DNA from: Pseudomonadota bacterium
GTDB taxonomy: Bacteria > Pseudomonadota > Gammaproteobacteria > Burkholderiales > Burkholderiaceae_C
Reading direction: 5' to 3'
NCBI GenBank assembly: GCA_021808525.1
Contig: JAKBBK010000027.1
Location: 1 to 36,572, forward strand
Length of the DNA stretch: 36,572 nt
Positions within the stretch are counted from its first letter, which is position 1. Each line of letters starts with the position of its first letter. The notes below the pieces were generated by a model. The model saw nothing but the letters and a program-made list of their open reading frames with translations. It searched no databases and was not told the DNA's origin. The position numbers were made by a program, and so were the translations under genes. Of this stretch, positions 15,074 through 36,358 are shown in pieces.

Positions 15074-15187
15074 CGCCCGTCGACCGCGCGCCGGGAGTCC
15101 CGCGGGGCCGCGAGGCCCGGCGCCGGGCGCCCGACGCCGAGGATGCGCGACAATATTCCCTTCCGATCGCCCCGGCTTGCATTCGCC

Positions 15188-15865
15188 ATGACCACCTCGT
15201 TCCGCGGCCGCGACTCCCGCGACCGATCCCGCGCCTCGCTGCAGGACCGTCTGCTGGCGCTGGCCGACAACGCCTTGAAGACCCTGGCCGGAGGCCTGCA
15301 TGCCTCGCGACCGACGCCCGAAGCCCCCCCGGGGGCCGCCGCGCGCCCGCTGGAGCCGGCCGAGCGCGAGCTCTCGGGGCGCCTGATGCGGGTCAACCAC
15401 GTGGGTGAGATCTGCGCCCAGGCGCTGTACCAGGGCCAGGCCCTGGTGGCCCGCGACCCCGCGCTGCGCACGCATTTCGCGCAGGCGGCGCGCGAGGAAT
15501 GCGACCACCTGGCCTGGTGCCGCGAGCGCCTGCAGCAACTCGACTCCCGCCCCAGCCTGCTGGACCCGCTGTGGTACGCGGGCGCGCTGGGCCTGGGGGT
15601 GGCGGCCGGCAGCTTCGGGGAACGACTCAGCCTGGGCTTCGTGGTGGAGACCGAGAACCAGGTCGAACAGCACCTGGCCTCGCACCTGCAACGCCTGCCG
15701 CAGGCGGACCTGGCCTCGCGCGCCGTGGTGGAAACGATGCGCGCCGACGAAGTGGCCCATGCGACGGCCGCCGAAAAACTCGGCGGCCTGCCGCTGCCGG
15801 CCCCGGTGCGCTGGGGCATGCGCGCGGCGGCCAGGGTCATGACCACCACCGCCCAGTGGATCTGA
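15188..15865 (+). CDS. coq7: Demethoxyubiquinone hydroxylase (COQ7 type)
   Basis: COQ7 hydroxylates 2-polyprenyl-3-methyl-6-methoxy-1,4-benzoquinone, a late step of ubiquinone synthesis. The 225-residue protein is a ferritin-like di-iron monooxygenase with ligand motifs MRVNHVGEI, REECDHLAW (ExxH), NQVEQHL and MRADEVAHA (ExxH) in the expected order. The start at 15188 gives the family N-terminus with DRLLALADNALKTLAGG; an ATG at 15143 is an alternative with similar context. It stands alone, 27 bp from the convergent OsmC-like gene. Aerobic ubiquinone synthesis through COQ7 rather than UbiF is common in betaproteobacteria. Confidence 0.94.
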   Translation: MTTSFRGRDSRDRSRASLQDRLLALADNALKTLAGGLHASRPTPEAPPGAAARPLEPAERELSGRLMRVNHVGEICAQALYQGQALVARDPALRTHFAQAAREECDHLAWCRERLQQLDSRPSLLDPLWYAGALGLGVAAGSFGERLSLGFVVETENQVEQHLASHLQRLPQADLASRAVVETMRADEVAHATAAEKLGGLPLPAPVRWGMRAAARVMTTTAQWI

Positions 15866-15892
15866 GGCGCCCGCCCCCGGCGGGCCGGGGCC

Positions 15893-16339
15893 TCAGCCCT
15901 CGACGATCTCGAAACTGGTGGTGATGGCCGCCGTCTTCGCCAGCATGGCGCTGGCGGAGCAGTATTTCTCGTGGGACAGGGTGATCGCCCGCTCGACCTT
16001 GGCGGCGTCGAGCCCGCGCCCGCTGACCACGAAGTGCATGTGGATCGCGGTGAACACCTTCGGGTCGCTGCCGGCGCGTTCGGCCCGCAGGCGCACGCTG
16101 CAGTCGCGCACGTCCTGGCGACCCTTGCGCAGGATGTAGACCACGTCGTAGGCGGTGCAGCCGCCGGTGCCGGCCAGCACCGTTTCCATGGGCCTGGGCG
16201 CCAGGTCGTGGCCCCCTGGCTCGCCTTCGCGCGCGGCCGGCGCTCCGTCCATGGTGATCATGTGCCCGCTGCCCGTGGTGGCGACGAAGGCCATGCCCTC
16301 CCCATCCAGCGGCTTGCTCCAGCGCACCGTGCATTCCAT
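15893..16339 (-). CDS. OsmC/Ohr-family peroxide-reducing protein
   Basis: The 148-residue protein has the OsmC fold with the two reactive cysteines Cys61 (GTGGCTAYD) and Cys127 (HEKYCSASAM). These cysteines reduce organic hydroperoxides in characterised family members. It is closest in appearance to the generic OsmC-family group (YhfA-like) rather than Ohr. GGGAG lies about ten bases before the ATG, and CACAATAGAG upstream could supply a -10 box. It is probably cytoplasmic. It is transcribed toward coq7, with a 27-bp convergent gap and no obvious terminator between. Confidence 0.9.
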   Translation of the reverse strand: MECTVRWSKPLDGEGMAFVATTGSGHMITMDGAPAAREGEPGGHDLAPRPMETVLAGTGGCTAYDVVYILRKGRQDVRDCSVRLRAERAGSDPKVFTAIHMHFVVSGRGLDAAKVERAITLSHEKYCSASAMLAKTAAITTSFEIVEG

Positions 16340-16525
16340 TGCCAGGCTCTCCCTTGCGGCCGATCGCGGCCCCTGGCTCTATTGTGCGTCATGCGCCTCC
16401 CCCTCGTTGCCCGCCCGCAACACCGCCGCGCCGCGTCCGCCCCGGCTCGGCGCCCGCCGACGCAACAAAGTCCCCGCATCGGCGCATCCGCAGGCCGCTG
16501 AATCAACCCGGAGCCGCAAGGGGTT

Positions 16526-16554
16526 TTGCCAAGTACTCGGGTTTGTCCTAAGAT
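16526..16554 (+). promoter_or_regulatory. Sigma-70-type promoter for candidate small RNA
   Basis: TTGCCA (16526-16531) and TAAGAT (16549-16554) are separated by exactly 17 bases. They match 5 of 6 and 4 of 6 of the sigma-70 hexamers. The predicted start is near 16561. The promoter lies in the osmC-ilvA gap (16340-16720), the longest stretch in the window without a protein-coding gene. Confidence 0.7.
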
Positions 16555-16560
16555 AGAGCC

Positions 16561-16650
16561 ATGTCGACGATGTCTGGTCGACGCCTCTTGTCTCCTCCAC
16601 CCTCCTCCATAGGTGGATTCAAACCCAGGCCCCAAGCCTGGGTTTTTTTT
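16561..16650 (+). ncRNA. Candidate small RNA with anti-Shine-Dalgarno loop
   Basis: A complete transcription unit of about 90 nt is visible, with the promoter just upstream and a perfect intrinsic terminator at its end. Three stem-loops can be drawn. The first has arms GTCGAC at 16563-16568 and 16577-16582. The second has stem TCCACC (16596-16601) with GGTGGA (16612-16617) around a ten-base loop CTCCTCCATA. The third is the terminator. The loop's CUCCUCC, and a second copy at 16592-16598, are complementary to Shine-Dalgarno GGAGGAG, so a trans-acting translational repressor is a fair inference. I do not recognise it as a known RNA family. An ilvA leader with premature termination is the main alternative. 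Confidence 0.6.
16621..16650 (+). terminator. Strong intrinsic terminator of the candidate small RNA
   Basis: Perfect 10-bp stem AAACCCAGGC (16621-16630) with GCCTGGGTTT (16636-16645), loop CCCAA, and eight T residues at 16643-16650. It ends 70 bases before the ilvA start codon, so it cannot belong to ilvA itself or to the opposing osmC-like gene. Confidence 0.93.
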
Positions 16651-16720
16651 GTGCCGCGCGCGGCGGGCCCGGGGGCTGCCCTTGGATAAACTGGGGTCTT
16701 TGCCCGCCCTGGCCCCGCAC

Positions 16721-18262
<1,542 letters not shown>

Positions 18263-35810: not shown

Positions 35811-35896
35811 GGAGGGGTGCCCGAGTGGCTAAAGGGGGCAGACTGTAAATCTGTTGGCTTACGCCTACGTTGGTTCGAATCCAACCTCCTCCACCA
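35811..35896 (+). tRNA. tRNA-Tyr (anticodon GTA), CCA encoded
   Basis: Acceptor arm GGAGGGG pairs with CTCCTCC. The anticodon loop CTGTAAA sits between CAGA and TCTG and gives anticodon GTA. The T arm is GTTGG-TTCGAAT-CCAAC. The long variable region is typical of class II tRNA-Tyr. The 3' CCA is encoded at 35894-35896. Confidence 0.97.
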
Positions 35897-35908
35897 GAAC
35901 AACGCAGT

Positions 35909-35932
35909 ACGGTTTTACGGTTTCACGGTTTT
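35909..35932. repeat. Three tandem 8-bp repeats in tRNA spacer
   Basis: ACGGTTTT, ACGGTTTC and ACGGTTTT follow each other with exact period 8. A single ACGGTTTT recurs at 36429-36436 just before the tuf ribosome binding site. Function unknown; such runs can vary in copy number by slippage. Confidence 0.7.
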
Positions 35933-35998
35933 CGCAAGGCTTCGGGGGTCACGGGCCCACGGAACAGCGCGTCGCGGAAGATCGCAGAGGAACGAGCG

Positions 35999-36036
35999 AG
36001 CAGCACGAGCAGGTAGCAGCACGAGCAGGCAGCAGC
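35999..36036. repeat. Tandem 16-bp repeat in tRNA-Tyr/tRNA-Gly spacer
   Basis: AGCAGCACGAGCAGGT (35999-36014) is followed directly by the same sequence ending in C (36015-36030) and a partial third copy AGCAGC. It lies within the 192-bp spacer between two tRNA genes, which holds no gene. Confidence 0.8.
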
Positions 36037-36088
36037 GATACGAAAAGACCACGCCGGCAGGCGCGGTCCGCGCGAGCGGATTGCAGTC

Positions 36089-36162
<74 letters not shown>

Positions 36163-36283
36163 TGCTCCTTCGCGCCACGTCCTGCCACCCGCCGTCCGTT
36201 CGGCTCGTCTCCCGCCTGATCGCCCGCCCCGGCTCGCATTTCCGGCGCGGTCTTCCGAAGCAGGCGCAAACCGGCAGGAACAC

Positions 36284-36358
<75 letters not shown>

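Follow-up and report, generated by a model that had tools for sequence, protein, structure and literature searches.

The window, the whole 36,572-nt stretch of DNA that was analysed, carries a double-hairpin small RNA (sRNA) of Rfam family RF02278 on its forward strand, with a predicted primary transcript of ~90 nt (16561..16650). We regard it as very likely that this RNA, a probable ortholog of S17 of Bordetella pertussis, has its own promoter and represses translation by blocking ribosome binding sites (RBS) together with Hfq. In the proposed mechanism the sRNA would be transcribed from its own sigma-70 promoter and would end at an intrinsic terminator. Its exposed UGUCUCC(UCC) and CUCCUCC loop would base-pair with strong GGAGGAG-type Shine-Dalgarno (SD) sequences of many mRNAs, above all those of uptake and catabolic genes, and pairing would block ribosome binding, with Hfq assisting. 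From published relatives we infer that the RNA is expressed, depends on Hfq, is processed to a short form and represses this class of targets. The family has been described before; the new and testable parts are the conserved osmC address of the sRNA and a PhaR-type motif found upstream of it in the wider family.

The RNA unit and the conservation of its structure

The promoter consists of a -35 element, TTGCCA (16526..16531, forward strand), and, after 17 nt, a -10 element, TAAGAT (16549..16554, forward strand), both read directly and recovered by a promoter scan. This pair is the sole sigma-70-like site on either strand between 15500 and 17500 (shuffle mean 0.0), and at 25 same-genus loci the best promoter-like pair scores 7-9 of 12 with a spacing of 17-18 nt. 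The transcript ends are predicted from promoter spacing, terminator and fold. In the minimum-energy structure, 16561-16650 folds into three hairpins with -35 kcal/mol (z -5.2), and none of 200 shuffles is equally stable. The 5′ hairpin GTCGAC/GTCGAC (16563..16582) is indicated by the fold and by two-sided changes. Site 1, UGUCUCCUCC (16589..16598), has UGUCUCC exposed and its last three bases in the following stem, and is the same in 25 of 25 genus loci. The anti-SD hairpin (16596..16617) has a 6-bp stem (16596-16601/16612-16617) and displays CUCCUCCAUA; its loop CTCCTCCATA (16602-16611) is Site 2. An intrinsic terminator with a U tail (16621..16650) is recognized by a terminator scan, by the fold and by pairing in relatives. 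Its stem has 10 pairs (16621-16630/16636-16645), and eight T residues follow one another at 16643-16650, the first three inside the stem; the U tail is likely an Hfq site. All these elements lie on the forward strand. The region 15500-17500 holds three terminator-like sites (shuffle mean 0.9), the 5′ hairpin being another of these.

The promoter, ~90-nt unit, three hairpins, two CUCCUCC copies and strong terminator listed in the preliminary description are thus all present on direct reading, in scans and in the fold. The second CTCCTCC had been placed just 5′ of the stem. The heptamer is there (16592-16598), but it shares three bases with the anti-SD stem, and therefore the exposed 5′ stretch is UGUCUCC (16589-16595). 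A single CTCCTCC is ordinary in the window (8 observed vs 5.6 expected); the tandem CTCCTCCNNNCTCCTCC is seen a single time there, and none of 100 shuffles contains it. On sequence grounds, this is very probably a genuine sRNA gene.

Conservation of loop and stems had been set beforehand as a test, and the stems do pair in relatives. The same-genus comparison comprises 25 loci with 23 distinct sequences. At these loci five of the six pairs of the 5′ hairpin show both-sided changes. The anti-SD stem does not vary, and in the terminator 90.9% of cells are paired; the three helices together have 7 pairs with a two-sided change, vs 2.7 in shuffles. At the order level, among 34 sequences of which 33 are distinct, 99.5% of the cells of the anti-SD stem are paired, a value that none of 500 shuffles matches, and the stem occurs in the forms CCAC/GTGG, CCAT/GTGG, CTAT/ATAG, CCAT/ATGG and CCAA/TTGG. 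Two-sided changes there fall on two of six pairs, which 51 of 500 shuffles reach, and fill 6 cells, which no shuffle of the 500 reaches. The structure tested was the window's own fold, with a bias toward it over slid versions. The 33 order-level sequences besides the window are mostly the best-scoring RF02278 matches from searches of 41 and 150 genomes. They were excised by a pattern containing GTCTCCTC, a motif that all 33 places offered possessed, and its invariance at this level is therefore partly by construction. Two of ten weaker places entered this alignment; some others (L035, L041) are without GTCTCCTC. The hairpins and pairing sites are kept under selection.

A survey of named genomes with a core pattern that leaves three loop bases free gave at least 118 stretches. 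Because the pattern fixes the core, conservation of the core in them is by construction, and the tests lie in the loop, flanks and neighbours. Among the matches listed, every one of the 354 free loop bases (three per stretch) is A or T.

Family membership and genomic address

The core of the RNA (16589..16651, forward strand) matches the RF02278 model, Betaproteobacteria_toxic_sRNA, at full length (model 1-64 of 64) with 66.6 bits against a cutoff of 50 (E 1.8e-11). The description of the RNA as new therefore does not hold. No other Rfam family reaches its own cutoff at this locus in the Rfam covariance search; anti-hemB (RF02837) stays below its gathering cutoff with 28.5 vs 49.5 bits. RF02278 matches at E<=0.001 are found in 35 of 41 genomes (the own genome and 40 relatives) and exceed the cutoff in 31; all 25 same-genus genomes have a copy above cutoff. 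Within the order, a search using filters that drop weak matches gave matches in 99 of 150 genomes, above cutoff in 59. The 14 control genomes gave none.

A second RF02278-like place in the own genome was dismissed as a family member, with only 31 bits. This hairpin-terminator with GTCTCCTC (L002:1501-1564; contig C14:22380-22443, minus strand) lies directly 3′ of a Phasin_2 phasin gene that carries two PhaR-type sites. Possibly it is a 3′UTR-derived sRNA sharing this seed. Some genomes of the genus (L032, L033, L034 and L036, of genomes G020, G006, G021 and G003) have a second, distinct RNA-like locus of 30-33 bits, which carries TGTCTCCTCCAG and has a conserved upstream block around TGATCGTTTGTCG; it is likely a divergent paralog. 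Elsewhere in the window, 35811-36355 contains three tRNA genes.

Four RF02278 RNAs are known from Burkholderia cenocepacia, with Northern evidence credited to Kimelman 2012 (PMC4603805), and four from Herbaspirillum (PMC7011215). The B. cenocepacia double-hairpin RNAs ncS03, ncS05, ncS27 and ncS62 are published relatives with RBS-complementary loops, and are reported to be more abundant in biofilm and in glucose medium; overexpression of ncS27 slows growth and its silencing speeds growth (PMC5688073). The RNA ncS35 is a different one, without Rfam hits (PMC5760752). The window RNA resembles the four double-hairpin RNAs in its two hairpins, CU-rich anti-SD sites and intrinsic terminator, as well as in the full-length covariance match, but its 5′ hairpin is an addition specific to the genus. 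One copy above cutoff is present in the own genome, whereas three to five copies are reported for each Burkholderia genome (PMC5688073).

S17 of B. pertussis is reported to bind Hfq, to be processed by RNase E and to repress BP2158 directly, and matching mutations in its Site 1 and in the target bring repression of BP2158 back (PMC11722255). S17 left exponential growth of E. coli unimpaired (PMC11722255), and thus "toxic" is not a fixed property of the family. It is located between BP3151 and coq7 (PMC11722255). The window RNA shares with S17/S17S a coq7-side locus, an extra 5′ part before the core and two single-stranded RBS-complementary sites. They differ in that S17L, at 190 nt, lies directly beside coq7, whereas in the window osmC intervenes and the predicted leader is ~28 nt. 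Since both RNAs stand beside coq7, they are probably positional orthologs, on the basis of coq7 adjacency and family resemblance. The cuckoo RNAs of alphaproteobacteria are described as masking ribosome binding sites with a CU-rich anti-SD loop. The loop of the window RNA is similar by description; the Rfam family at cutoff here is RF02278 only.

The sRNA has as its divergent neighbour an OsmC-like gene (15893..16339, minus strand; Pfam OsmC 1.6e-18), beyond which lies coq7, a ubiquinone biosynthesis gene (15131..15865, forward strand; Pfam COQ7 4.2e-43). Among the matches listed, a divergent OsmC-type gene is present no more than 900 nt upstream of the sRNA in 101 of the 102 loci whose flank is long enough. 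Of the 77 listed matches with 2200 nt of flank, 35 have coq7 inside that distance, and all 77 have osmC or coq7. The word osmC is absent from the text of the S17 paper (PMC11722255). The RBS of osmC does not stand out as a target: among the matches listed, 6-7 bases are matched in 11 of 109 loci, vs 5.7% of mononucleotide shuffles, and the longest exact complement is at most 5 nt in 98 of 109. Any SD sequence would give such a slight excess. Given so strongly conserved a neighbour, there may nevertheless be a link between the sRNA and osmC function. OsmC protein was not found in viral contigs. Of 14 loci scanned, five (L108, L114, L149, L171, L195) have RNase P RNA at a distance of ~0.8-0.9 kb from the sRNA, the four titled ones being from Cupriavidus, Ralstonia and Burkholderia.

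Predicted targets and alternative readings

The preliminary description proposed a trans-acting anti-SD translational repressor, and this is the best reading. Blocking of the RBS has been demonstrated for S17 and proposed for other double-hairpin relatives (PMC11722255, PMC5688073), and masking of ribosome binding sites by the window RNA is well supported through them. The pattern GGAGGAGA-N2-10-ATG has 23 matches in the own genome and none in the backwards control. A Pfam scan limited to open reading frames (ORFs) behind these matches took in 15 of at least 100 aa, of which 12 have Pfam hits (that to DsrE falls short of its family cutoff). Transport proteins account for seven of the 12, with solute-binding proteins from two families, three MFS permeases, a purine/uracil-type permease and a FadL-type outer-membrane protein. 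Another candidate target encodes a pterin-4a-carbinolamine dehydratase. The control SD pattern AAGGAGAY, which shares up to six bases with the Site 1 complement, gave 20 matches (2 in the backwards control); of 16 ORFs scanned, 14 have Pfam hits and three encode transport proteins. The excess of transporters is not significant (7/12 vs 3/14, one-sided Fisher p 0.063), and p becomes 0.107 when two likely internal starts are dropped. Repression of transporters by relatives has been published, and the own genome's candidates are suggestive of, and consistent with, the same target class.

Two rival readings were weighed first. As a cis-acting leader or attenuator, its hairpins and terminator would control read-through into ilvA, the threonine dehydratase gene (16721..18262, forward strand; GTG start by conservation; Pfam PALP 4e-80, Thr_dehydrat_C 3.8e-48), and the preliminary description had likewise considered amino-acid control. 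The element does lie directly upstream of ilvA and in the same direction, both in the window and at nearly all same-genus loci (L029 ends early), but loci with the same core have ilvA in this direction within 900 nt downstream in only 21 of 104 cases among the matches listed. There is also a -10-like box between terminator and ilvA start, TAAACT in the window (16687..16692, forward strand), which marks a separate ilvA promoter and recurs as TANA(A/C)T at 24 of 25 same-genus loci, the 25th ending early. Rare adjacency and this conserved box together make control of ilvA unlikely, and attenuation was rejected on synteny and the separate box as very improbable. In the other reading the ATG at 16561 begins a leaderless micropeptide and the hairpins are incidental. 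This ATG stands 7 nt past the -10 box, and S17 is noted to contain a 32-residue ORF (PMC11722255); yet at 12 of 25 same-genus loci the codon is ACG, GCG, AAG or GTA while pairing sites and stems are kept. With the start codon lost so often, the micropeptide was rejected, and it is hardly credible as an explanation of the locus.

A further alternative keeps the SD pairing and removes its specificity: the RNA would be a general SD titrator, or growth brake, without particular mRNA targets, an action that would account for toxicity in E. coli. CUCCUCC is similar to the 16S rRNA anti-SD. According to papers citing Kimelman 2012, family members inhibit E. coli growth when cloned (PMC4603805, PMC7011215), and slowing of the host on overexpression points the same way (PMC5688073). 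Against titration, deletion of S17 raises 92 genes, 70 of them with matching sites (PMC11722255), and overexpression of NcS27 alters growth on some substrates and leaves it unaffected on others (PMC10987360). Titration thus appears unlikely, and repression of particular mRNAs by RBS blocking is the reading preferred here.

A PhaR-type motif upstream of the sRNA in relatives

Regulation of the accumulation of the B. cenocepacia double-hairpin RNAs is termed "yet unknown" in the paper that describes them, which also refers to a "common upstream motif" shared by three paralogs (its Fig. S3; PMC5688073). A repressor of S17 has been postulated, its identity not being given (PMC11722255). The upstream analysis covered 112 of the at least 118 loci, namely those with 350 nt of flank, which fall into 32 similarity clusters, two of them with 44 and 30 loci. 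Among the matches listed, TGC-N3-GCA lies no more than 150 nt upstream in 65 of 118 loci, vs 23 of 116 downstream and 10.1 in shuffles. A strict form, TTGCNNNGCA[CAG][AC]A on either strand, is present in 51 of the 112 regions of 350 nt among the matches listed, in 49 on the sRNA strand, against a background of 1.6 in shuffles and 18 in 1977 control stretches. With the best of four spacings taken, 47 of 50 strict sites among the matches listed are followed 16-18 nt on by a -10-like hexamer (4 or more of 6 positions matching), and the strict site therefore covers the -35 box. The central triplet, which was left free, is RNY in 47 of 50 of these sites (45 of 48 distinct ones).

When the 64 palindromes xyzRNYz′y′x′ are ranked, TGCRNYGCA comes first with 65 of 112 loci among the matches listed; the next has 16 and the median is 2. 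A -10-like hexamer 16-18 nt on accompanies 49 of 78 TGCRNYGCA sites among the matches listed, vs 9.3% of arbitrary positions. An extended form of the site is found in 24 of 32 clusters, or in 21-23 of 32 with single representatives, vs 0.39 when shuffled (again among the matches listed), and the TGCRNYGCA core is found at 12 of 25 same-genus loci. Four of 13 order-level loci without osmC in the flank also have TGCRNYGCA no more than 200 nt upstream (L088, L090, L095, L106).

PhaR is a repressor that senses PHB, a storage plastic. Its site in Ralstonia eutropha has been published as YTKNTGCRNYGCANMAR (PMC12849132), and that of Herbaspirillum PhbF is TG[N]TGC[N]3GCAA (PMC3206438). Among the matches listed, YTKNTGCRNYGCANMAR is found with at most one mismatch in 31 of 112 regions (1.1 in shuffles) and with at most two in 69 of 112 (8.1 in shuffles); three mismatches are too loose (85 of 112 vs 44.6). 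PhaR is encoded in the own genome, as is a phasin (Phasin_2, 3.2e-27), whose gene has two PhaR-type sites, by eye one before the -35 box and one near the start. R. eutropha phaP1 is described as having the same two-site arrangement (PMC12849132). For alphaproteobacteria, repression of the sRNA MmgR by PhaR/AniA is reported (PMC8401924, PMC12542648). MmgR (alpha-r8) of Sinorhizobium meliloti, Hfq-dependent and negatively controlled by AniA (PhaR), offers a parallel, at the level of the circuit, to what is suggested for the window RNA's relatives; PhaR control is published there, whereas here it is inferred.

Several observations bear on this proposal from the other side. The window's own promoter is without the site: TGCCAAGTA (16527..16535, forward strand), at the position that the PhaR-type core occupies at 12 of 25 same-genus loci, is not a site by the published consensus, and 16340-16600 has no match to the PhaR consensus at up to three mismatches. 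All 13 of the 25 same-genus loci without the core have GGGTTTGTMCTA across spacer and -10 box (window 16526-16560), a shared sequence that hints at a change of regulator inside the genus. Upstream of phaR itself TGCRNYGCA is present at only 7 of 38 loci, vs 18 of 181 control tiles; none of the 20 phaR loci in the window's genus has it, and neither does any of the 8 from genomes with the site in the sRNA promoter. The presence of PhaR does not track the strict site: among the matches listed, PhaR is present in 43 of 48 genomes that have the strict site and in 47 of 48 that lack it; 15 of the latter 48 entries still have TGCRNYGCA. A relaxed motif rescues only 6 of 47 core-less loci among the matches listed. 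Cupriavidus, a classical maker of PHB, is mostly without the core (present in 4 of 22 titled loci, three strict, among the matches listed). Ralstonia-titled loci have it in 6 of 7 cases among the matches listed, not in the strict form, and where seen it is near the RNA start, not over the -35 box. The text of the B. cenocepacia paper contains neither PhaR nor PHB (PMC5688073), and none of the papers listed in the literature search ties PhaR to the RF02278-type family by title or abstract start. Perhaps another regulator with a TGC-N3-GCA site acts instead of PhaR; the common upstream motif of PMC5688073 may be the same element.

On balance we lean slightly towards the view that the PhaR regulon of many betaproteobacteria includes the osmC-linked RF02278/S17-type sRNA, in a storage-to-uptake feedback, and that the window's lineage lost the operator. 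PHB granules would draw the PhaR repressor off DNA, and accumulation of PHB would thus cause PhaR to leave its operator over the -35 box. The sRNA would then be made and nutrient uptake shut down by SD masking. Such control would apply to relatives of the window RNA, and in the window's own lineage the RNA would have been retained and the PhaR operator lost.

A 2021 review describes the riboregulation of PHB in Cupriavidus necator as undeciphered. The conserved osmC address, often with coq7, may help to separate orthologs from paralogs in this family, and the finding of a PhaR-type motif at the -35 box provides a candidate repressor for it. If true, the circuit would constitute a feedback from carbon storage to uptake, parallel to PhaR control of MmgR in alphaproteobacteria.
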